Made by a program: the position numbers and the translations under genes
Shown: one piece after another, positions 407 through 33,786 of the stretch
How positions within the stretch are numbered: the stretch's first letter is position 1
Layout of the letters: the number at the start of each line of letters is the position of its first letter
Assembly: GCA_009692425.1 (NCBI GenBank)
Contig: SHZF01000025.1
Span: 1 to 54,804 of the forward strand
Length of the DNA: 54,804 nt
DNA from: Myxococcales bacterium
Lineage (GTDB): Bacteria > Myxococcota_A > UBA9042
Direction: 5' to 3'
Notes under the pieces: generated by a model
Seen by the model: only the letters and a program-made list of their open reading frames with translations
Database searches by the model: none
What the model was told of the DNA's origin: nothing

Positions 407-413
407 TTGGTTC

Positions 414-1799
414 TCATTTGCTTGTCATGCCGGACTCCGAAACTGCCAGCGTTGACGATTGTTGTGTAGTATCAATGTGTTGCCGACCAGGTTCGACACT
501 CGCGGTCCCGGTCCGACGCAAGCGCCAGAAACTACGCGCGATCTCAGAAGTTTCGGAGCTCGCCAGTGCGGGTCTCGCCACCGTGCTGTCCGTGTCGAGG
601 AGCGCGGCAACGGCGGACAGCGGCTCTGGGGGCGGCGCCATGACCTGCTCGTACACGCCGACGATGCGCTCGAACGTCGCCTTCCAACTCCAGCGCCGCT
701 CCACTTCCGCGCGGCCGCGGGCGCCCAGCAGAGCAGCCCGCCCGGGCTTGAGCAGGTCGAGCCAGGCGTCGGCGACCGAAGCGGCCGTTGTTGTTTCGAG
801 CGCGATGCCTGCGCGCGTCAGGCCGAGCAGTTCGCCGATACTCATCTGCGCCGAACCGAGCACCGCCGCGCCCGACGCCATCGCCTCGACTGCCGCGAGG
901 CCGAACGTCTCGTACGGGCACAGGCAAGCGACTACGTCGACGGACGCCAGGACCCGGGCCATTTCGCGCGGCTTAGCCACGAAGCCGAGGTAACGTACCT
1001 CCGGATAACGGGCCGCGAGCGCCTCGACATCCAGTTGGCCGGGGCCATTTCCGGCGATCACCAGCAGCGGACGCTCGGCCGTCGTTTCGCGGATGCGTAC
1101 ATAGGCTTCGAGCAGCGGGCGGAAGTTCTTCTCCTCCGACAGGCGCCCGGCATACGCCAGAACCACGTCGCCGGGTCGCGCACCCCATTGGGCCCGCAGC
1201 GCCTCGTCACGGTGGCGCGGTGCGAACATCTGGGTGTCGACGCCCAGCGGCATGGGCACGACACCGGCGACGCCATTGCGCTGCAGTTGATCGACCATGC
1301 ACTCCGTCGCGGCCATCGTCGCCGAGAACGCGCCATATGTGCGGCGGGCCCACCACCACGCCGCCCTCTCGCCGAGCGCGCCCAGCCAGTGCCCGCCCCT
1401 GGAAAGGACGCGGCGGACGTCGGTGACGGGAAAATTCGCGTGCCAGAACCCGACCACCTTGGTGTCGAGACCGGCCACGGCAAAACGCACCCAGTCCGGC
1501 GTGTGGAAGGGTGAGCCGACTTCGACGACGTCCGGGCGAATCTGGCGCAACACGCGGCGCAGCACGAACGGGTTCCACATCAAGCGGTAGCCCGACTTGC
1601 CCAGCGACAGCGCGGGCACGTGGTGGATGCGGGCCGTGCCGTGCACCTCGACACCCGCGCGGTCCGACGGCAGTAGCAGGTGGTACTCGATGTCCTCGCG
1701 GCGCGCGAGATAGCGGAGCTTTTCCAAGTGATAGCGCCGCACGCCCCCGCCGGTGAGGCTGAAGAAGTCGTTGACATCGGCGATGCGAAGCTTGGCCAT
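414..1799 (-). CDS. Glycosyltransferase family 4 (group 1)
   Basis: A 461-aa protein with the two-Rossmann GT-B layout. The N-terminal half starts with ADVNDFFSLTGGG, typical of the acceptor-side glycine loop. The C-terminal half has the donor-binding EKNF, a VIAGNGPG turn and the family motif ETFGLAAVEAMASG, whose first Glu contacts the nucleotide-sugar. It probably transfers a sugar from an NDP- or GDP-sugar onto lipid or surface glycan at the cytoplasmic face. The ATG at 1799 is chosen because it starts the conserved fold; no good ribosome site is visible, and the frame stays open upstream to 1943. The substrate cannot be read from sequence. Confidence 0.85.
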   Translation of the reverse strand: MAKLRIADVNDFFSLTGGGVRRYHLEKLRYLARREDIEYHLLLPSDRAGVEVHGTARIHHVPALSLGKSGYRLMWNPFVLRRVLRQIRPDVVEVGSPFHTPDWVRFAVAGLDTKVVGFWHANFPVTDVRRVLSRGGHWLGALGERAAWWWARRTYGAFSATMAATECMVDQLQRNGVAGVVPMPLGVDTQMFAPRHRDEALRAQWGARPGDVVLAYAGRLSEEKNFRPLLEAYVRIRETTAERPLLVIAGNGPGQLDVEALAARYPEVRYLGFVAKPREMARVLASVDVVACLCPYETFGLAAVEAMASGAAVLGSAQMSIGELLGLTRAGIALETTTAASVADAWLDLLKPGRAALLGARGRAEVERRWSWKATFERIVGVYEQVMAPPPEPLSAVAALLDTDSTVARPALASSETSEIARSFWRLRRTGTASVEPGRQHIDTTQQSSTLAVSESGMTSK

Positions 1800-3876: not shown

Positions 3877-5973
3877 TCAGCGGCCGGCGACGAGCGGCGC
3901 GATCAGGAGGCTGACGACGCTCATCACCTTGATCAGGATCGCGACGCCGGGGCCCGACGTGTCCTTGAAAGGGTCGCCCACGGTGTCGCCGATGACGGCC
4001 GCCTTGTGCGTGTCCGAGCGCTTCGGGTGGCCGGGCAGCCCGCCCTTTTCGATGTACTTCTTCGCGTTGTCCCAAGCGCCGCCGGAATTCGCCATGAACA
4101 GCGACATCGACGCGCCGACTGCGAGCGCCCCGGCCAACGTACCTGCCAGCGCCGCCGGTCCGAGCACCCAGCCAACCACGACCGGCCCGACGACCGCCAC
4201 CATGCCCGGCAAGATCATCTGCGACAGCGCGGCTTGGGTGGCGATGCCGACGATGGCTTTCGGCTCCGGGTCCGCGGTGCCCTCGCGCAGGCCAGGGATT
4301 TCGTTGAACTGCCGGCCGATCTCGACCACGATCGCGCCCGCCGCCTTGCCGACGGCCAGCATCGTCGACGACGCGACGATGAACGGTAGCACCGCGCCAA
4401 TGAGCAGGCCGATGAGGATGTCGGGGTTGTTGATGGCGAGGTCCATCGCCGGCAGGCTGGCACGCAGGCGCGTCGCGTTCACCTCGAGCGAATAGGCGGA
4501 GAAAAGCGCCATCACCGTGAGCGTCGCCGAGCCGATCGCGAAGCCCTTGCCGATCGCCGCCGTGGTGTTGCCGACCGCGTCGAGTTCGTCGGTGATCTCG
4601 CGAACCTTGGGGTCGAGCCCTGCCATCTCTGCGATGCCGCCGGCGTTGTCGGCGACCGGGCCGTAGGCATCCACCGTCATCACGATCGCGGTGCCGGCCA
4701 ACATGCCCACCGCCGACAGGCCGATGCCGTACATGCCGAGGTCGCCCATCGCGGCGTTCGCGATGTAGGCCACGGCTGCGATCAGCAGCAGGCACACGAA
4801 CACCGACTCCATGCCGACGGCCATGCCGCGGATGACGTTCGTGCCGGCGCCCGTCTTGGAAGCCTCGGCGACGCCCTTCACCGGGCCGTAGTGGCCGGTG
4901 TAGTACTCGGTCAGCAGGCCGATCAGCGCGCCGCCGAGCGCACCACCCGCCAGCGCCACCGTCACGCTCTGCGCGACCTTGAACTGGGGCAGGATCGCGT
5001 ACGTGATCGCGACCAACACAACCGGCGGCAGCACCATGGCGGCGCGCAAGACGGTAGACGGCGCTGAGTTCTTCATGGCCCGCGCGATGAAGATGCCCGC
5101 GATCGACACAATGAGGCCGATGCCCGCCAGGATCAGCGGCAGCGCCACGGCAACTGCGCGCTTGGTCGGCTCGTCGAGGCTGGCACCGGTGGCGAACAGG
5201 CCGTCGAGCGTGGTGACGTTGATCGCGAGGCCGATCGCCATCGTCGCGACGATCGCGGCGACCAGTGACTCGTAGATGTCGGCGCCCATGCCGGCGACGT
5301 CGCCCACGTTGTCGCCCACGTTGTCGGCGACCACGCCCGGGTTGCGCGGGTCGTCTTCGGGAATGTTCTCAAGCACCTTGCCCGCGATGTCGGCGCCGAC
5401 GTCCGCGGCCTTCGTGTAGATGCCGCCGCCAATGCGGGCGAACAGCGCGATCGACGACGCGCCGACTGCAAAGGCATGGAGCATCGTGGGCAGATGATCG
5501 GTGCCCTGGTACATCGCGTACACGCCGTACAGGCCGATCAGCGACAGCGCGGCGACGCACAGCCCCATCACGGCGCCGCCGTCGAGCGCGGTCAACAATG
5601 CGTTGGCCTTGGAGCCACTGGCCGCGGCCTGGGCGGTGCGGACGTTGGCAAAGGTGGCTGCGCGCATGCCGATGAAGCCGGCGAGCAGCGACAGGAAGGC
5701 GCCGCACAGGAACCAGCCGGCCGCGATCGGGCCGAGCGAGGGCACGGCCGCCATGCAGCCGCCGACCACGACCGCGTAGACCGCCAGCACCTTGTATTCG
5801 GCGGCCAGGAACGCCATCGCGCCCTCGCGGATGTAGCCCGCGATGCGCTTCATCGCCTCGTTGCCCTCGTCGAGGCCCTTGATGCGAACGTAGAAGAAGG
5901 CCGCGATGATCAGGGCAAAAACGCTGGCGCCGAGCGTGACCTTGGTCCACAGGTCGAGAACGTCGGTCAACAT
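3877..5973 (-). CDS. hppA: Membrane-bound ion-translocating pyrophosphatase
   Basis: A 698-aa integral pyrophosphatase that couples PPi hydrolysis to H+ or Na+ pumping across the inner membrane. The canonical substrate loop is complete: [19 protein letters not shown] and the [16 protein letters not shown] acidic cluster. The C-terminal loop has [14 protein letters not shown]. At the position that separates the subfamilies it reads [10 protein letters not shown], with Ala where K+-independent enzymes have Lys, so it should be K+-dependent. Whether it pumps H+ or Na+ cannot be told from what I can see. The ATG has GAGG 6 nt upstream. It may share a transcript with the following membrane protein gene. 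Confidence 0.97.
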
Positions 5974-6121
5974 GGTACCTCGTGTGCACGACTGCGGAGG
6001 AGAGAAGTGCAGTCACATCAAATGGTTGCGCCGCCCGCGCGAACCGTGGCCCGGCGCGGAAAGGCGCGCAAGGTGCCATGGAACACGGGGCGGCGCAACC
6101 GTCGCTGACCGATGCTTGCGC

Positions 6122-6718
6122 CTACAGCTTGCGCGCGTTCTTGCCGAGGAATTCGGCGACGCCGGTGCGGTTCGCCTTCATGGCGGCCTTGCCGTGCGTC
6201 CAGCCGGCCGGGCAGACCTCGCCGTTGGTTTCGGTGTGCTGCAGGGCATCGACCATGCGCAGCATCTCATCGACGTTGCGGCCGAGGTCGAGGTTGTTCA
6301 CGACCTGGTGCTGCACCTTGCCGTTCTTGTCGATCAGGAACGACGCGCGCAGGGTCTTGGCGTCGTCGGCCATCACGTCGTAGTCCTTGGCGATCGACTT
6401 CGTGATGTCGGCCAGCAGCGGGTAGCGGACCGCGCCGATGCCGCCGTCCCTGACCTTCATCTCGCGCCAGGCCCAATGGCTGAACTTCGAGTCGACCGAA
6501 CAGCCGAGCACGACCGTGTTGCGCTGCTCGAACTCGGCGATGCGGTGGTCGAATGCGATGATCTCGGTCGGGCACACGAACGTGAAATCGAGCGGGTAGA
6601 AGAAAAGCACCACGTATTTGCCGAGGTACTGCTCGAGCGAGAGTTTCGCGAAGCTGCCGTCGGGCAGGACGGCTTCGGCGGTGAAGGCGGGAGCGGGCTT
6701 GTTGACGAGTACGGCCAT
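6122..6718 (-). CDS. Typical 2-Cys peroxiredoxin (AhpC/TSA)
   Basis: A 198-aa thiol peroxidase that reduces H2O2 and organic peroxides. The peroxidatic Cys is residue 49 in the FYPLDFTFVCPTE loop (with Pro42 and Thr46 of the PxxxTxxC motif), and the resolving Cys is 169 in GEVCPAGW. The length and both cysteines fit the Prx1/AhpC class, which forms an intersubunit disulfide and decamers. The start ATG at 6718 has AAGGA about 10 nt upstream and matches the family N-terminus. It follows the DoxX gene on the same strand with a 94-bp gap. No AhpF or thioredoxin reductase gene is in the window. Confidence 0.95.
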   Translation of the reverse strand: MAVLVNKPAPAFTAEAVLPDGSFAKLSLEQYLGKYVVLFFYPLDFTFVCPTEIIAFDHRIAEFEQRNTVVLGCSVDSKFSHWAWREMKVRDGGIGAVRYPLLADITKSIAKDYDVMADDAKTLRASFLIDKNGKVQHQVVNNLDLGRNVDEMLRMVDALQHTETNGEVCPAGWTHGKAAMKANRTGVAEFLGKNARKL

Positions 6719-6812
6719 GGTCGGGTCCTTGGTGTGGCGAGGGGACGGATGGGTGTGGCGCGGGAGGCGCGCCGAAAAGCGGCTGGCGGTGTACGGCAGG
6801 CGCGCCGGCAGA

Positions 6813-7469
6813 TCAAGCGCTGGCTGGCTTTTTCCCTTTCGTGCCGCCCCGAGTCGCATCTGCACCGCGCGCCAGCAGTGCGTCGATGCTGAACAAGCCG
6901 GGGCCGAGCGCGGCCACTGCCAACAACATCACGAGGTAGGCGAACGCGAGTTCCGAGGTGAAGTCGAACTTCGTGTTGAAGCTGTCCCAGTGTGCGGTGA
7001 GCATGGCGACGGCCATCACGAGGACCGCCGGCACGGCACACAGGCGGGCCATGGCGCCGACCCCGATGAGGACGCCGAAGCCGACCTCCTGGACGGCGGC
7101 CAGGGTGAAGTTCAGCTTGCCGCCGCCGGGCAGTTTCCATCCCGCGCGGCCCGCGATCGTGAGGTCGCCGAACCAGGCCACGGTCTTGTCGGCCTGCTCC
7201 TGGCACGCGGCCTTGCGTTCGCGGGCGCAGACGGTGCCGACCCCGGCCCGACAGGTGTCGTCCGCGCAATTCTCGCGGGCATCCCTTTCACAGTCGGAGT
7301 TCGGATCCGAAGAGCACTCGCCGCGCAGCTTGGCGACCTTGCCCATGCCGGCCTCGTACAGGCCGATGCCTGCGGTCAGGCGCAGCGCCAGCAAAGCGAC
7401 CGACGCCGCCAGCGCGCGCTGTGGCACGAGGTGGCCTCGCAGCCTGCCCAGAATTGTGCCGCTCGCCAT
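6813..7469 (-). CDS. DoxX-family membrane protein with Cys-rich loop
   Basis: A 218-aa protein with four hydrophobic segments in the DoxX arrangement (ALRLTAGIGLYEAGMGK as the first, then a helix containing GFGVLIGVGAM, another with LVMAVAMLTAHWDS, and a last one). DoxX proteins are small inner-membrane proteins, often linked to thiol or redox stress. Unusual here is a roughly 45-residue insertion between helices 1 and 2 with six cysteines (GEC, SDC, ENC, DTC, TVC, AAC), probably periplasmic and disulfide-bonded. The ATG at 7469 has GGGGGA upstream. Its neighbour downstream is a peroxiredoxin, in keeping with a redox role. Confidence 0.8.
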   Translation of the reverse strand: MASGTILGRLRGHLVPQRALAASVALLALRLTAGIGLYEAGMGKVAKLRGECSSDPNSDCERDARENCADDTCRAGVGTVCARERKAACQEQADKTVAWFGDLTIAGRAGWKLPGGGKLNFTLAAVQEVGFGVLIGVGAMARLCAVPAVLVMAVAMLTAHWDSFNTKFDFTSELAFAYLVMLLAVAALGPGLFSIDALLARGADATRGGTKGKKPASA

Positions 7470-25572: not shown

Positions 25573-26877
25573 TCACACGAAGATGCCGGCCAGCGCGCCG
25601 AGCACGTACGTGACCACCGAACCGCCCAGCATCGCGCGCAGGCCGAGGGACGCGAGGTCCTTGCGCCGCTCCGGCACCATCGCCGCGATGCCGCCGATCT
25701 GGATGGCGATGCTCGAAAAGTTGGCGAAACCACACAGGGCATAGGCTGTGATGATGGCGGCCCGCGGGCTCAACGGCGCCGGACTGGTCAGGTTCGTCGC
25801 GAGATCGAGGTAGGCGACGAACTCATTGAGCACGAGCTTGATGCCCAGAAAACTGCCCACCTGCGGCGCTTCGGCCCACGGCGTGCCGATCAGCCATGCC
25901 ACGGGAGCCATCGCCAGGCCGACGAGGCCTTGCAAGGTGACGCCGTCGAAACCCATGAGACCGAAAACCCAGCCGATGCCCGCGTTGGCAAGCGCGACCA
26001 AGGCGATGAACGCAATCAGCATGGCCCCGACATTGAGCGCGAGCGTGAGCCCCTCGCTGGCTCCAGCGGCGGCGGCGTCGATCACGTTCTGGTGCACCTT
26101 GGGCACGTCGATGTGGGCGTCGGGGCGCGTGGACGGCGTTTCGGACTCTGGCACGAGCAGCTTGGAGACCATGATCGTGGCGGGCGCCGACATTACCGAC
26201 GCGGCGAGCAGGTGGCCGGCGATGTCGGGGAACTTCGTCTGCAGCATCGCGACATACGCCGCCATCACTCCGCCGGCCACGTTCGCGAAGCCGCCGAGCA
26301 TGATGCAGTGCAGCTCCGAACGCGTCATGCGCGCCAGGAACGGGCGGATCATCAAGGGCGCCTCGGTCTGGCCGACGAAGATGTTGCCCACGGCCGACAG
26401 CGCCTCGGCGCCCGACGCCTGCATCAGCCGCGCCATCGATTTCGAGAACACGCGCACGAGCGCCACCATCACGCCGGAGTGGTAGCCGACCGCCATCAGC
26501 GCGCTGAAGAAGATGATCGTCGGCAGCACGGAGAAGGCGACGAGTGCCGAGCCCTTGACGAGGTCGCCGAACAGGAAGCGCGCGCCTTCGTTCGAGAAAT
26601 TCATCAGCTTGACGAACGCGGCGTTGACCTGCTCGAAGACCGCCTCTCCGGCCGACGTCTTCAGCATCAGCAGCACGAGTGCAACCTGCAGCACCATGCC
26701 GGTCACCACCGCGCGCAGGGGAAACCGGTCGCTGGGATTGCGCGTGCGCAGCAGCCAGCACAGGCCGAGCAGCACGCCGATGCCGAAGATCGCTTGCAGG
26801 CGCGGCAAGGCGCCGACATCCCCGATGTTCTGGCGCAATTGCAGCACGGCATTGGCGGCGGTCGTCGTCGGGTCCAT
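25573..26877 (-). CDS. nupC: Concentrative nucleoside transporter (CNT/NupC family)
   Basis: A 434-aa inner-membrane symporter for nucleosides. CNT hallmarks are in order: SNEGARFLFG, GNIFVGQTEAPLMIRP, ANVAGGVMAAYVAML, MSAPATIMVSKLL, LVLNEFVAYLDLA and ALCGFANFSSIAIQIGG, which together form the nucleoside and cation sites. About ten hydrophobic segments are visible. ATG 26877 has AGGAG 9-10 nt upstream. The gene is divergent from the PfkB-Q_salvage fusion gene (258 bp between starts), which suggests the imported nucleoside is that enzyme's substrate. Confidence 0.93.
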   Translation of the reverse strand: MDPTTTAANAVLQLRQNIGDVGALPRLQAIFGIGVLLGLCWLLRTRNPSDRFPLRAVVTGMVLQVALVLLMLKTSAGEAVFEQVNAAFVKLMNFSNEGARFLFGDLVKGSALVAFSVLPTIIFFSALMAVGYHSGVMVALVRVFSKSMARLMQASGAEALSAVGNIFVGQTEAPLMIRPFLARMTRSELHCIMLGGFANVAGGVMAAYVAMLQTKFPDIAGHLLAASVMSAPATIMVSKLLVPESETPSTRPDAHIDVPKVHQNVIDAAAAGASEGLTLALNVGAMLIAFIALVALANAGIGWVFGLMGFDGVTLQGLVGLAMAPVAWLIGTPWAEAPQVGSFLGIKLVLNEFVAYLDLATNLTSPAPLSPRAAIITAYALCGFANFSSIAIQIGGIAAMVPERRKDLASLGLRAMLGGSVVTYVLGALAGIFV

Positions 26878-27135
26878 CGTGGGGTGTCTCCTGCCAGCCG
26901 CCGACCCTACCCCACGGCGTTCCGCCGGGGAACCCGGATCTGCCGATACGGGCCCACCTCCGTCGTAGTCGCTCCGGGCTTGGTGCTCGATGGACCTGAT
27001 GTTCAATAGAGACTCAAGTCCTCACTCTGCCTAGGATCTGGACCCGTCTCGACGGCCCGCGGAGGTTCTAGGGTGGTGGATCTTGGGGAACACTGCCTTG
27101 CCCGGGGGCGGGCGTGGTGCCACCATCCTCGCCCC

Positions 27136-28944
27136 ATGCCCCAGGGCCTTCCCATCCTCGTCATCGGCGGCGCCTCCGTAGACCGACTGCGCGCCGCCGA
27201 AGGGGCCGTCACTACGCCCGGCGGCGGCGGCTTGTATACGGCGGTCGCTGCGCGCAAGGCCGGCGGAGACGTGCGGTTTTTCGGCTATCGCCCGGACCCG
27301 CTGCCCGAGCTTTTCGAGCGCGCCGCGACAACGGTGGCTTGGCATGGGCCGCCCGTGCGGCTCGAAGACATTCCCCACTTCGAGATCGTCTACGACACCG
27401 GCGGCGACGCGCGGATGGAGACGGCGACCTGGGGCAACGAGGCGACGCTCGACCCCGACATGGTGCCCGATTTTCTCTTAAGCGCGCGCTACATCCACAT
27501 CGCGGCGATCCACGACGCTTCCCTGCAGATGAAGTTCATCTCGGCGCTGCGGCGGCGGTCGCGGGCTCGGTTGTCGGCCGGGACGTTCGGCTACATGGTG
27601 CACCGTAGCCCGGATGCGGTGCGGGCGCTGATGGACGCGGTCGACTTGTTTTTCCTCAACGCCTTCGAGGCGGAGGCGATCTTCGGACCGCAGCCCCCGA
27701 CCGTGCGCCCGGGGCAGATTCTCGTGGTCACGCGCGGCTCCGACGGTGCCGACGTGTGGCAGGGCGACTGGTGTACGCGCGTGCCGGTATGCCCGGCGCG
27801 GCCGGTCGATCTGACGGGGGCCGGTGACTCCGTGTGCGGCGGCATGCTGGCGGGGTTGGCCGCTGGCATGCATCCGGTCGATGCGGCGCGCCACGGCACG
27901 GCATGCGCCGCGATCGCGATTGAAGCGCCCGGCATGACTGCACTGCTCGACACCGATCGCGCGGCGGTCGATGCGCGCAAGGTGCCGCTGATCGACCGCC
28001 GTTGCGCCGTCGACGACAGCCAGGTCGATCGGATCGCCGCAGTGTTGCGCGATCTGCCCGACGTGCGCCCGTTCGACTTCACGGGCCCGCATTTTCCCCG
28101 CGTCGGCGATGCCCACGCCTTGGATTATTTCTTTGCGGCCATCAAGCACCAGTTCGGCTTCTGGACGCCCGGGCACGGTTCCTGGCGAGCGCCCACCTAC
28201 GCGACCCTCGGCGGCGAGCGGCTGAAAGGGTCGGACTACTGTTTTGCCAGTTTTCGCCGGCAGTTGGAGCGCGACCCCCGCGTCCTGTCGCCCCAGGGGC
28301 AAGCGGCGCTGCGCTGGCAGGACACCGAGAGCCTGTTTCGCGACGACGATGGCCAGGTGCCGCTGCCGGTGCTTGCCAACCACCATGCGCTGGCCCGCGG
28401 GTATGGCCGCGACTTGTGGGAACTGGGCTGGACGCCCCAATCGCTCGTCGCCGAGGCCCACGCCGCGCCGGATCCGGTGCGCACGCTGCTGGCGCGACTC
28501 GACCACATCACGGGGTACCGCGAAGACCCCTTTCGCAAGAAGGCGACGCTGCTCGTGGTCGCGCTGGGGCAGCGCCCGGAGCGCTTCATCGAGTTGCATG
28601 ACGGCGCCTCCTTGCGGCCGATCATCGACTATCACCTCATGCGATCGTGCCTGCGCACCGGGCTCGTGCGCGTTCAGGATGCCGACCTCGCGGCGCGGCT
28701 CGCGGAGCGCAAGCTGGTGCCGCCCACCGACGAGGTGGCCGTGCGCAAGGCTTGCTTCGACGCAATCGAGCGCCTGTGTGCGCGCTCGGGGCGCGACGTG
28801 GGTACCGTCGACTGGTTTTTCTTCAATGCCCGGCGACGCTGCCCCGAAGTGACCGAGCCTGAGTGCGCGCGCTGCCCGCTGGACAGCACGTGCGCCCACC
28901 GCAAGGACCTGTTCCAACCCGTGCTGCGCACGACGTTCTACTGA
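27136..28944 (+). CDS. PfkB-type kinase fused to a Q_salvage (Qng1/DUF2419-like) domain with a Cys4 tail
   Basis: A 602-aa fusion. Residues 5-285 are a PfkB/ribokinase-like kinase: VIGGASVD start, glycine-rich GGGGLYTAVAARKAG (30-44) and LTGAGDSVCGG with catalytic Asp231. Residues 310-565 resemble queuosine-salvage proteins, which release queuine from queuosine 5'-phosphate. Matching features are ALDYFFAAIKHQFGFW, a VPLPVLANHHAL segment, YREDPFRKKATLL (compare their KRAQ segment), PIIDYHLMR with Asp498 (compare ADYRvPQ), DEVAVRKACFDAIERL and VDWFFF. The end carries C569-x7-C577-x2-C580-x5-C586, like the [4Fe-4S] loop of endonuclease III. ATG 27136 is chosen by the kinase N-terminus; the ribosome site is weak. 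An HhH-GPD DNA glycosylase is the alternative for the second half. Confidence 0.7.
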   Translation: MPQGLPILVIGGASVDRLRAAEGAVTTPGGGGLYTAVAARKAGGDVRFFGYRPDPLPELFERAATTVAWHGPPVRLEDIPHFEIVYDTGGDARMETATWGNEATLDPDMVPDFLLSARYIHIAAIHDASLQMKFISALRRRSRARLSAGTFGYMVHRSPDAVRALMDAVDLFFLNAFEAEAIFGPQPPTVRPGQILVVTRGSDGADVWQGDWCTRVPVCPARPVDLTGAGDSVCGGMLAGLAAGMHPVDAARHGTACAAIAIEAPGMTALLDTDRAAVDARKVPLIDRRCAVDDSQVDRIAAVLRDLPDVRPFDFTGPHFPRVGDAHALDYFFAAIKHQFGFWTPGHGSWRAPTYATLGGERLKGSDYCFASFRRQLERDPRVLSPQGQAALRWQDTESLFRDDDGQVPLPVLANHHALARGYGRDLWELGWTPQSLVAEAHAAPDPVRTLLARLDHITGYREDPFRKKATLLVVALGQRPERFIELHDGASLRPIIDYHLMRSCLRTGLVRVQDADLAARLAERKLVPPTDEVAVRKACFDAIERLCARSGRDVGTVDWFFFNARRRCPEVTEPECARCPLDSTCAHRKDLFQPVLRTTFY

Positions 28945-28945
28945 A

Positions 28946-29407
28946 ATGGCCAAGCCGCACCCCACCGAGCGCGTCATCGCGACCAACCGCAAGGCGCTGC
29001 ACGAGTACGCCATCGAGGAGACGCTCGAGGCGGGCATCGTGCTGCAAGGCTCTGAGGTCAAGGTGTTGCGCGCCGGCAAGTGCACGCTGACGGGTGCCCA
29101 CGTACGCGTGGTCGGTGGTGTGGCCCAGGTGATGGGTCTGCAAATCCCTGAGTACCCGTGGGCGCACCAGTTCAACCACGCCGTCGAGCGGCCGCGCCGG
29201 TTGCTGCTCCATGCGCACGAAATCGAGAAGCTCGGCGTCGAACTGCGTCGAAAAGGCACAGCATGTGTGGTGACGAAGCTGTACTGGAAGGGCGCCAAGG
29301 TGAAGCTCGAACTCGCCCTCGGCGTCGGCCGCAAGGACCACGACAAGCGGGCCGCGATCCACGATCGCGAGGCCAAACGCGACATCGCGCGGGCGCTGCG
29401 GCGGTGA
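28946..29407 (+). CDS. smpB: SsrA-binding protein SmpB
   Basis: A 153-aa tmRNA-binding protein needed for trans-translation and ribosome rescue. It shows the SmpB fold markers: ATNRKALHEYAIEETLEAGIVLQGSEVK, the Gly-rich turn, HEYPWxHQF-like PEYPWAHQFNH, RRLLLHAHEI and the DKRAAIHDREAKRDIARAL basic C-terminal tail that inserts in the mRNA channel. The ATG starts 1 nt after the stop of the kinase-Q_salvage gene, so the two are probably co-transcribed. No ssrA (tmRNA) gene was recognised in the window. Confidence 0.96.
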   Translation: MAKPHPTERVIATNRKALHEYAIEETLEAGIVLQGSEVKVLRAGKCTLTGAHVRVVGGVAQVMGLQIPEYPWAHQFNHAVERPRRLLLHAHEIEKLGVELRRKGTACVVTKLYWKGAKVKLELALGVGRKDHDKRAAIHDREAKRDIARALRR

Positions 29408-30707: not shown

Positions 30708-31136
30708 GTGGTGCACGCGTCGGGACCCGTCGACACCGTGCTGCAAGTCTCCACGCCGGAGCGCGCAACGTTTCGGTTGGCGCTGGCCGGCCCTTGGCAG
30801 CGCGGAGGTGCCTAGCTGGCCGACCTCGTCGGGCGCGCGCGCAGGACCGAAGGCCGTACAGCGCATCGTGCAGGCCAGCTTCGACCTGTTTCCCGAGGAG
30901 GTGGAGTCCGACGTCGAGGGCGCTGTGACCGAGTTCCGGCGGCGGGTGCAGCGGCGCGCGACTCCGACGACGACCTGTGGGTGCGCGGCCCCGCAGCGCT
31001 CGAACGGCTGCAGCGCGACCGCGCCCTTGAATCGCTGCGCAAGGCCGGCGTGCTGGTGCTCGAAGTGACGGCGGCCGACCTGGCTTCGCGGCTCGTGCAG
31101 CGCTACCTCGAGATCAAGGGGCGTGCATGGCTGTAG
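30708..31136 (+). pseudogene. Relic of RDD- and DUF58-like coding sequence
   Basis: AAGGAG precedes GTG 30708, which opens a 35-codon frame (VDTVLQVSTPERATF, RLALAGPWQRGGA) like the N-terminus of RDD membrane proteins. It stops at TAG 30813 where the family usually has Trp (GAWLxD). Further on, codons with strong G/C third positions run in another frame (about 30855-30960: FDLFPEEVESDVEGAV), then return to the first frame (30966-31136: DDDLWVRGPAALERL, VLVLEV, RYLEIKGRAWL). That end resembles the C-terminus of DUF58 proteins. A nonsense mutation, a frameshift and probably a large internal deletion are implied. It overlaps the modC 3' end by 23 bp. Confidence 0.55.
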
Positions 31137-32241
31137 CGGGGAGCGCGACGGGAGCGAGCAACGCCACCCCCTTGATCTGGGCCCACACAGGCAAGCCGGG
31201 CGCCAAGTGCAGCGCGTCCACCGACTTGGTCGTCAGCCGCGCCACGACGGCCGCACCGCCCAGGTCGAGCCGCACCAGGTGCACGCCGGGACCGTCCGCT
31301 ACGACCTCGGCGATGACGGCTGGCAGGACATTCAGGATGCTCGTCGCCACCGGTCGTTCCAGCGCCACGCTGACGTCGCGTGCCAACACCCGGCACCGCA
31401 CCACGTCGCCGATTCTCGCCAACCGACCCGGAGCAAGCAGACGCCCACCGGCGAACGTCAGCTCCGCGAGGTGCGCTTGCGCGTCGTAGCCCGTGACTGT
31501 CGCCCGCAGCACGCTGCCGGCCTCGTCGTGCAGCGCAGCGGCGATGTCGAGGCGACCCAACAGGGTGTCGAGGGCACCGGCCGCACGTACGGTGCCGCCG
31601 TCGAGGAGGACGAGGTAGTCCGCAAGGCGGGCCACCTCATCCGCCGCGTGGCTCACCAGCACGGCGGGAATCGCGAGTTCGGCGTGGAGTCGCTCGAGGT
31701 ACGGCAACAGTTCGGCTCGGCGTGCCAAGTCCAGCGCCGCGAGCGGCTCATCGAGCAAGAGCAGACGCGGGCTCGCCAGCAGGGCCCGCGCGATCGCGAC
31801 GCGTTGGCTCTCGCCGCCCGACAGCGTAGTCGGGTGGCGCGCCAGCAGGCTGCCGAGATCGAACAGGTCGACGCTGCGGTCGAAGGTCACCCGCCGCTGC
31901 TCGGAAGGCTCTCGCCGCTCCGTTGCCACGCGCTGCCAGCCAAACGCAAGGTTCGCGCGCACATCGAGGTGCGCAAACAAGTTCGCTTCCTGGAACACAT
32001 AGCCGACCCCACGCCGGTGTGGCGGCACGAACACCCCTCTCGCATCGTCCTGCCACACCTCGCCGAGCACCTCGACGTGCCCCTCTGCGCGATCGAGCCC
32101 CGCAAGAGCGCGCAGCACGGTCGTCTTGCCGGCGCCCGACGGCCCGAACAGCGCCGACATGCCGCGGGCCGGCAACGTGAAGTCGACCGACAGCGCAAGG
32201 CCGCGCGGTGCGCCGCGCAGGTGGCAGTGGACGCCCGTCAT
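31114..32241 (-). CDS. modC: Molybdate ABC transporter ATP-binding protein
   Basis: A 375-aa ATPase. Walker A is GPSGAGKTT, the Q-loop YVFQEANLF, the signature LSGGESQRVAIARAL, Walker B LLLLDEPLAALD and the H-loop LVSHAADE. After about residue 290 there is a MOP/TOBE-like domain (RATVTGYDAQ, SILNVLPAVIAEV, VWAQIKGVALL) that senses molybdate in ModC proteins. ATG 32241 overlaps the modB stop as ATGA. The 3' end overlaps the RDD/DUF58 relic on the other strand. Confidence 0.95.
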   Translation of the reverse strand: MTGVHCHLRGAPRGLALSVDFTLPARGMSALFGPSGAGKTTVLRALAGLDRAEGHVEVLGEVWQDDARGVFVPPHRRGVGYVFQEANLFAHLDVRANLAFGWQRVATERREPSEQRRVTFDRSVDLFDLGSLLARHPTTLSGGESQRVAIARALLASPRLLLLDEPLAALDLARRAELLPYLERLHAELAIPAVLVSHAADEVARLADYLVLLDGGTVRAAGALDTLLGRLDIAAALHDEAGSVLRATVTGYDAQAHLAELTFAGGRLLAPGRLARIGDVVRCRVLARDVSVALERPVATSILNVLPAVIAEVVADGPGVHLVRLDLGGAAVVARLTTKSVDALHLAPGLPVWAQIKGVALLAPVALPATAMHAP

Positions 32242-32912
32242 GGCGACCGCGCATGGCGGCGGCCGACGCCATAGACCACCACGAGCAAGGCAAACGAGAC
32301 CAGGAGCAGCACGCCAGAGAGCGTGTGCGCGGCGGAGTATTCGAGGGCCTCGACGTGGTCGTAGACCGCCATCGACAGCACGCGCGTGGCGCCGGGGATG
32401 TTGCCGCCGAGCATCAACACGACGCCGAACTCTCCAATCGTGTGGGCAAATCCGACCACGACCGCGGCAACGATGCCCGGTGCGGACAGGGGCACCGCAA
32501 CTCGAAAAAAGCGGTCCCACGGCCCGGCGCCGAGCGTCGCCGCCACCTCGAGCGGCCGGTCGCCGACGGCCGCGAATGCCGCGCGCAGCGGTTGCACGAC
32601 AAACGGCAGCGAATGGCACAGCGCACCGACCACGAGCCCGCCGAACGTGAACGGGAGCAGCCCGATGCCGAGCCATTGCGTAGCGCGCCCGACGGGGCCG
32701 TCCGGTCCGAGTGCGAGTAGCAGGTAGAACCCGATCACGGTCGGCGGCAGCACCAACGGCAAGGCGACGACGGCGGCGACGACCGGCTCCCAGCGCGATT
32801 GCGTGCGCGCGAGCCACCAGGCGAGCGGGGTACCCACGAGCAGCAGCAAGCCGGTGACGACGGTCGCCAACCGCAGCGTCACGCCGACTGCGGCCAGATC
32901 TTCGGCGCTCAT
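32238..32912 (-). CDS. modB: Molybdate ABC transporter permease
   Basis: A 224-aa inner-membrane permease with about five or six segments. The binding-protein-dependent transport motif is visible as EVAATLGAGPWDRFFRVAVPLSAPGIVAA, where Glu-Ala-Ala-x3-Gly contacts ModC. VLPPTVIGFYLLLALG and HTIGEFGVVLMLGGNIPGATRVLS are ModB-typical. ATG 32912 overlaps the modA stop (ATGA), and its own stop overlaps the modC start, so translation of the three is probably coupled. Confidence 0.95.
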   Translation of the reverse strand: MSAEDLAAVGVTLRLATVVTGLLLLVGTPLAWWLARTQSRWEPVVAAVVALPLVLPPTVIGFYLLLALGPDGPVGRATQWLGIGLLPFTFGGLVVGALCHSLPFVVQPLRAAFAAVGDRPLEVAATLGAGPWDRFFRVAVPLSAPGIVAAVVVGFAHTIGEFGVVLMLGGNIPGATRVLSMAVYDHVEALEYSAAHTLSGVLLLVSFALLVVVYGVGRRHARSP

Positions 32913-33691
32913 CGGGCGCGAGGCTCCCATTGGTAGCCGGCAGCTCGCACGTGCGCGCCCGCCGCGGGGGTCTGCAGCCACGCAACAAACGCGCGCGCCG
33001 CATCGATCCGGTCGGACGCCGCCAGGACGACCGCCTGCTGCCGAAGCGCGGGGTGCCACGCGGCCGGGACCAACCACGCGGACCCACGCTGGCCGGCCGC
33101 GACGACCTGGGCCCACGCGACGAAACCCAGTTCGGCGTTGCCGGTCGCCACGAACTGGAATGCCTGCGCCACGTTCTCGCCGACCACGAGGCGCGGTCGG
33201 AGGCGGCTCGCCAAACCGAGGCGGCTCATCACGGCAGCGGCGGCCACTCCGTAGGGCGCCAGCTTCGGATTCGCGATGGCCAGGTGGGCAAAGGCATCCG
33301 TGTGCAGCACGGCGCCCGCGGCATCGACGAAGCCCGGCTGCGCGCTGTACAGGGCCAGCCGCCCGGTGGCGTACGCGCAGCGTGTGTCGGCCAGCGCGCG
33401 TTTCGCAACCACCAGCCGTTCGACGCTCGCTGAATCCGCGGCCATCAGCACATCGAATGGCGCACCTTGGCCAATCTGGGCGGCGAGTTTGCCCGTCGAT
33501 CCGGCCGTCGCGCGCACGATGTGACCCGTCGCCGTCTGGAAATCAGGGGCCATCTTGGCAAGGGTCGCCGCAAAGTTGGCGGCCACGGCCACGCGCACGT
33601 CGGCGCCATCGGCCGGGTGGGCGGTCACCAACGCCAAGCACGCGCCCAGCACGGTCGCGCACGTCAACGCCATCGATCTGCGAACAGGCAT
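32909..33691 (-). CDS. modA: Molybdate-binding periplasmic protein
   Basis: A 260-aa solute-binding protein with a Sec signal peptide (positive MPVRRS, hydrophobic core, cleavage near DGA). The family start VRVAVAANFAATLAKMAPDF supplies the oxyanion-binding Ser/Thr-like loop. ATAGSTGKLAAQI, GAPFDVLMAADSASVERL and IANPKLAPYGVAAA are ModA signatures. First gene of modABC, divergent from acyP with 95 bp between. No ModE regulator gene or recognisable Moco riboswitch was seen. Confidence 0.94.
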   Translation of the reverse strand: MPVRRSMALTCATVLGACLALVTAHPADGADVRVAVAANFAATLAKMAPDFQTATGHIVRATAGSTGKLAAQIGQGAPFDVLMAADSASVERLVVAKRALADTRCAYATGRLALYSAQPGFVDAAGAVLHTDAFAHLAIANPKLAPYGVAAAAVMSRLGLASRLRPRLVVGENVAQAFQFVATGNAELGFVAWAQVVAAGQRGSAWLVPAAWHPALRQQAVVLAASDRIDAARAFVAWLQTPAAGAHVRAAGYQWEPRAR

Positions 33692-33786
33692 CGCGCGGTC
33701 CCGGTCCTGCGGAGTGTGCGGCTCAGCCAAGCCCAAGCCGCATCGGCAGGTTGCCACGGAGCCACAGACCCTGCTACAGCGGCCTC

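Follow-up and report, generated by a model that had tools for sequence, protein, structure and literature searches.

The queuosine salvage enzyme Qng1 (DUF2419; Q_salvage, PF10343) acts on a 5′-monophosphate (PDB titles; PMC11592518), which makes a nucleoside kinase its expected partner. A comparable pairing is known for pseudouridine, where PsuK, likewise a PfkB nucleoside kinase, is coupled to the 5′-monophosphate glycosidase PsuG, the two being fused in metazoa, amoebozoa and fungi and so providing a precedent, PsuKG, for a kinase and a nucleoside monophosphate (NMP) glycosidase in one chain (PMC9247573). In Clostridioides difficile a different scheme operates, in which the nucleosidase QueK, together with QueL, supplies a route from queuine to preQ1 that suits a preQ1-type tRNA-guanine transglycosylase (TGT; PMC11570991); the QueK family is unrelated to Qng1 (PMC11130926). 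Described here is an open reading frame (ORF) of 602 amino acids (aa) that fuses a PfkB-type kinase to a Q_salvage-superfamily domain in a 54,804-nucleotide stretch of DNA from a Myxococcales bacterium (contig SHZF01000025.1, assembly GCA_009692425.1; hereafter the window).

On balance the fusion is best read as a two-step nucleoside-processing enzyme resembling PsuK/PsuG, acting as kinase and then as nucleosidase. The PfkB half would use ATP to phosphorylate the 5′-OH of an imported or recycled nucleoside, after which the Qng1-like half, with its fold of the HhH-glycosylase type, would hydrolyse the N-glycosidic bond of the 5′-NMP to give the base and ribose 5-phosphate; the neighbouring transporter NupC may supply the nucleoside. 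Both activities, their order, channelling between them, the chemistry of a putative cluster, the link to NupC and the substrate are all inferred. The scheme differs from PsuKG in that the glycosidases are unrelated, being of the Qng1/HhH type here, in that the kinase comes first here and the glycosidase first in PsuKG, and in the bond cleaved, which is C-C there and presumably N-glycosidic here; the QueK/QueL scheme, unlike the fusion, needs no kinase. The features of the fusion are as follows.

27136..28944, plus strand: fusion ORF, 602 aa, PfkB-type kinase and Q_salvage-superfamily domain.
27136..27990, plus strand: N-terminal half, residues 1-285, PfkB-type nucleoside/ribose kinase domain (PF00294 score; model closest to 3kd6).
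27817..27828, plus strand: GAGD kinase motif, residues 228-231, invariant.
27994..28941, plus strand: C-terminal half, residues 287-602, Q_salvage/Qng1-superfamily domain, predicted NMP nucleosidase.
28537..28539, plus strand: K468, equivalent of Qng1 K199, kept 26/26.
28627..28629, plus strand: D498 in IIDYHLMR, equivalent of Qng1 D231, kept 26/26.
28810..28812, plus strand: D559, equivalent of Qng1 active-site D298 (PMC11592518), kept 26/26.
28840..28893, plus strand: four-Cys motif C569-x7-C577-x2-C580-x5-C586, like the EndoIII/MutY [4Fe-4S] motif (invariant Cys; weak EndoIII-cluster match).

Within the Q_salvage superfamily, the C-terminal half is not a Qng1 orthologue but falls in a clade sister to Qng1. 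By sequence alone the assignment is borderline, since the PF10343 scores over residues 324-550 straddle the cutoff of 25 (23.0 bits for the whole protein, 25.5 for the C-terminal half alone), with the same profile matching 22 of 24 family members at E<0.1 and PF00730 (HhH-GPD) matching one of the 24, weakly (E 0.074). An AlphaFold2 model of this half (predicted local distance difference test score, pLDDT, 83) has the same fold as the Qng1 structures from S. thermophilus (7u91, 7ulc) and human QNG1 (7ugk), with Z 22.4-22.9 and a root-mean-square deviation (rmsd) of ~3 Å over 281-290 residues (Z 22.9, rmsd 3.0, 281 residues for the highest), the next best match being an HhH-GPD enzyme at Z 11.0. 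Searched against the PDB, a profile of the 24 members found human QNG1 (E 7e-7) and, through the VDxH and Cys-cluster motifs, EndoIII weakly (E 0.8), and, profile against profile, the domain matched 19 Chloroflexota Qng1 proteins with a probability of 97.8% (E 7.7e-13).

When 26 family sequences were mapped to S. thermophilus Qng1 numbering, the equivalents of K199, D231, Y232, E267, R271, D298 and the C-terminal R-T-x-x-Y proved to be kept in every one, K199 and D231 being sites at which solved Qng1 structures carry mutations (PDB titles) and D298 and W302 active-site residues of Qng1 (PMC11592518). At the position of W302 all 26 have Phe (F563 in the fusion), and the Qng1 signature ADYRxPQ is changed to (I/V/M)DYHxMR, with Q for M in one member. 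D69, D186, Q202, P235, Q236 and W276, which are invariant or nearly so in Qng1, human QNG1 included, are replaced. With only ~20% identity to Qng1, the domain forms a separate, strongly supported clade outside Qng1, within which human QNG1 falls, in a tree whose program warned of long branches and unsure deepest joins. A preliminary description of the locus had assigned the second half to Qng1/Q_salvage, had noted PIIDYHLMR in place of the Qng1 signature and had reported an intact PfkB GAGD site (Asp231 of the fusion); both motifs are present as described, and the fold, the profiles and the retained key residues bear out the assignment.

The domain also ends in a tail lacking from Qng1, in which four Cys are invariant in 24/24 aligned members, spaced C-x7-C-x2-C-x5-C in nearly all, and not conserved in Qng1. 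The cluster of EndoIII is spaced Cx6Cx2Cx5C, one residue off the Cx7Cx2Cx5C of the fusion family, and this region is poorly modelled; from the motif, the tail probably carries an iron-sulfur cluster. The EndoIII/MutY/AGOG enzymes share the fold core, the VDxH aspartate motif and a similar Cys-cluster motif with the fusion domain, from which they differ in overall fit (Z ~11), in the N-terminal region and in the lack of any DNA context here. The four-Cys tail and VDxH place the family between Qng1 and the DNA glycosylases, which bears on the origin of queuine salvage enzymes. Elsewhere, a Q_salvage-like protein whose tail is rich in Cys and which weakly matches the 8-oxoguanine glycosylase AGOG (L111, G286:C233, 2596-3702, plus strand) is perhaps intermediate between the two groups, and a frame at L112 (G295:C410, 2847-4379, minus strand), a putative fusion, apparently joins a GIY-YIG endonuclease-like to a Q_salvage-like domain with a Cys-rich tail.

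The kinase half is recognised by PF00294 over residues 22-272 at 90.9 bits (cutoff 25.8), and TGAGD is invariant in the aligned fusion family. In a full-length model (pLDDT 85, predicted TM-score 0.68) the top kinase match was 3kd6, a nucleoside kinase from C. tepidum with AMP, with ribokinases close behind; specificity for nucleosides is likely.

In a scan of bacterial genomes the fusion was recovered entire at 15 loci, of which 14 have 66-68% identity and are mostly labelled Myxococcales, the other being from Anaerolineaceae at 43%; a further Chloroflexota fusion lies at L108. Among 284 Myxococcota genomes the complete fusion occurs throughout the window's own family (61-68% identity, ~20 genomes), a few genomes of which have fragmented copies, and relatives at 34-40% identity were found in a few other families. 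Applied to whole genomes, the Pfam Q_salvage model overlooked most of the fusions and is unfit on its own for counting them. In close pairs the ratio of nonsynonymous to synonymous substitution (dN/dS) is ~0.03-0.09 in each half, and purifying selection on the two halves is strong. Full-length homologues in ~20 family genomes and on 15 separately scanned contigs, together with the low dN/dS, show that the fusion is no chance joining, and the search for it in other genomes that the preliminary description had suggested thus recovered it at full length in Myxococcota and Chloroflexota. No plasmid copies of the fusion were found, and PADLOC gave no match, leaving a defence role unsupported. One fusion (L005) groups inside the Myxococcota family despite its Klebsiella pneumoniae label, and the same sequence is present in the family genome G101; L005 is probably a mislabelled metagenome-assembled genome.

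Several observations weigh against the two-step nucleoside reading. For the kinase half, the match to ribokinases is nearly as good as that to nucleoside kinases. Pairing of the domains is not obligatory, as the C-terminal domain stands alone in L033 and L109, and no kinase gene was seen beside either by length, eye or Pfam in the stretches available. The transporter nupC was not seen near the fusion in the family loci L006, L008, L009, L014 and L037. Lastly, the changes at Qng1-invariant positions outside the catalytic set mean that base specificity cannot be transferred from Qng1.

The queuosine (Q) genes of the host bear on what the substrate might be. The window's genome has TGT, QueA, QueG and two QPTR importers; a search for QueC gave a short partial match only, the same search having recovered the full gene in G226, and QueF was not found. 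Other fusion-family genomes have the same profile, save for gaps in the less complete G101, with TGT, QueA and QueG, mostly QPTR, and nearly all without QueC, and to judge by these genes the carriers of the fusion appear to salvage Q precursors. The sole TGT detected in the window's genome, like those of relatives, has the preQ1-type pocket GGLSVGE, queuine-type TGTs having GG[LS][AS]G (PMC11570991), so that freed queuine would be a poor direct substrate for it. The host thus appears, from its gene content, to import preQ1-type precursors and to complete Q itself. Genomes with canonical Qng1 in Chloroflexota (e.g., G343, G334) also combine QueA with a preQ1-type TGT, and therefore the profile alone does not argue a queuosine substrate away. 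In the Chloroflexota fusion holders G284 and G452 a second TGT has the pocket GGWPL, which is of neither type; a diverged GGWPL paralogue was also observed beside the canonical TGT in several Chloroflexota genomes (L134, L135, L136, L137, L138).

The readings of the substrate that follow are sub-cases of the two-step mechanism or compatible with it, and their likelihoods do not add up to one. Most probably the fusion acts on a modified purine nucleoside, and 7-deazaguanine nucleosides, whether queuosine or one of the preQ1 type, are plausible leading candidates; were it a preQ1-type nucleoside, the released base could be used by the host's own TGT. Tentatively, the fusions may constitute a distinct Qng1-sister family of NMP nucleosidases, probably iron-sulfur proteins and usually fused to their own kinase, that recover a 7-deazaguanine of the preQ1 route or another modified base, which, if true, would add a salvage enzyme to those that the literature searched names. 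A serious possibility, though one that falls short of being the favoured view, is that the fusion has nothing to do with queuosine and breaks down or detoxifies some other nucleoside, modified or damaged, in the way that PsuK/PsuG deal with pseudouridine; the replacement of the Qng1-invariant D69, Q202, Q236 and W276, the deep separation from Qng1 in the tree and the presence in genome G045 of another copy at 40% identity, suggestive of differing substrates, all speak for this, against which the closest relative of known function is specific for queuosine and salvage of Q precursors appears to take place in most family genomes.

An indirect salvage route, itself a sub-case of the two-step mechanism, is unlikely: here the fusion would free queuine, a QueL-like lyase would convert it to preQ1, and TGT, QueA and QueG would rebuild Q, which fits the preQ1-type TGT accompanied by QueA and QueG without QueC or QueF and follows the route known for QueK and QueL in C. 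difficile (PMC11570991), but depends on a presumed QueL gene in the host. More doubtful still is the pathway originally proposed, whereby NupC imports queuosine, the kinase makes queuosine 5′-phosphate and the second half frees queuine for insertion by TGT. The Qng1 fold with its key residues, the nupC neighbour and the need for salvage implied by the failure to find QueC and QueF are in keeping with it; against it, the only TGT found is of the preQ1 type, a TGT with a similar pocket in B. henselae uses queuine only at high concentration (PMC11570991), QueA and QueG, required only on the preQ1 route and expected by the preliminary description to be lost, are both retained, and the domain, with its altered positions and separate clade, is not a Qng1 orthologue. 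What stands of that proposal is the superfamily, the likeness to nucleoside kinases and the nupC neighbourhood, direct supply of queuine to TGT being unsupported; the refutation it had set for itself called for complete de novo synthesis together with the lack of a queuine-compatible TGT, and the former was not seen, QueC and QueF having escaped detection. Very improbable is the view that the C-terminal half is an HhH-GPD/EndoIII-type DNA glycosylase and the fusion a repair enzyme, a reading which draws on the EndoIII-like VDxH and four-Cys motifs and the HhH-GPD Z of ~11 but was rejected as the main interpretation on the gap between Z 22.9 and 11.0, the Qng1 match having twice the Z over more residues, the N-terminal Qng1 region being present with human QNG1 matched at E 7e-7, and the partners being a fused small-molecule kinase and a neighbouring nupC.

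For Qng1, which needs 5′-phosphorylated queuosine, a natural fusion of a kinase to a Qng1-like domain offers a handle on the missing kinase step, and one that can be tested with a single purified protein. The literature search returned no named queuosine kinase and no description of a PfkB-DUF2419 fusion, which is weak evidence given that coverage was partial and the main Qng1 papers lay outside it.

The genes surrounding the fusion in the window are arranged as follows.

25573..26877, minus strand: nupC, CNT-family nucleoside transporter, 434 aa (Pfam PF07662/PF01773/PF07670, TIGR00804).
26878..27135, no strand: intergenic region between the divergent nupC and fusion, no sigma-70-like site, no Rfam match.
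28946..29407, plus strand: smpB (PF01668, 157 bits).

NupC has three CNT Pfam domains above cutoff (252, 65 and 59 bits) and scores 394 bits with TIGR00804, below the cutoff of 442; the ORF coordinates and Pfam confirm that nupC and the fusion are divergent neighbours. The same adjacent, divergent arrangement is seen in L001-L004 and L010, and nupC lies within ~4 kb of the fusion in L005, L035 and L036, giving nine loci, the window included, where it is adjacent or near, across several related genera. No sigma-70-like site was detected in the region between the two genes, and neither the window nor eight related loci gave an Rfam match, leaving a riboswitch link unsupported. Starting one base past the stop codon of the fusion, smpB is probably co-transcribed with it, judging by this spacing, and directly follows the fusion in several relatives. 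In others it is not beside the fusion, and its linkage, earlier taken to keep the locus in a translation context, was dropped as functional evidence, smpB being a mere neighbour.

Both Chloroflexota fusion loci have a SurE nucleotidase within ~2-5 kb, a neighbour that speaks for the two-step reading. Directly upstream of a Chloroflexota fusion (L015, 5582-7153, plus strand) is a frame combining a metallophosphatase with an S-adenosylmethionine hydroxide adenosyltransferase, a family that yields adenosine. At L110 (G303:C33) Qng1-like genes at 407-1549 (plus strand) and 5651-6862 (minus strand) flank a transport gene set with a solute-binding protein, and a gene for an ABC_cobalt-family permease of the energy-coupling factor type lies nearby, a possible transporter link for the Qng1 superfamily. 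Further along the window, at 31114-33757 (minus strand), the frames look by eye like a modCBA-type (molybdate) ABC transporter cluster.

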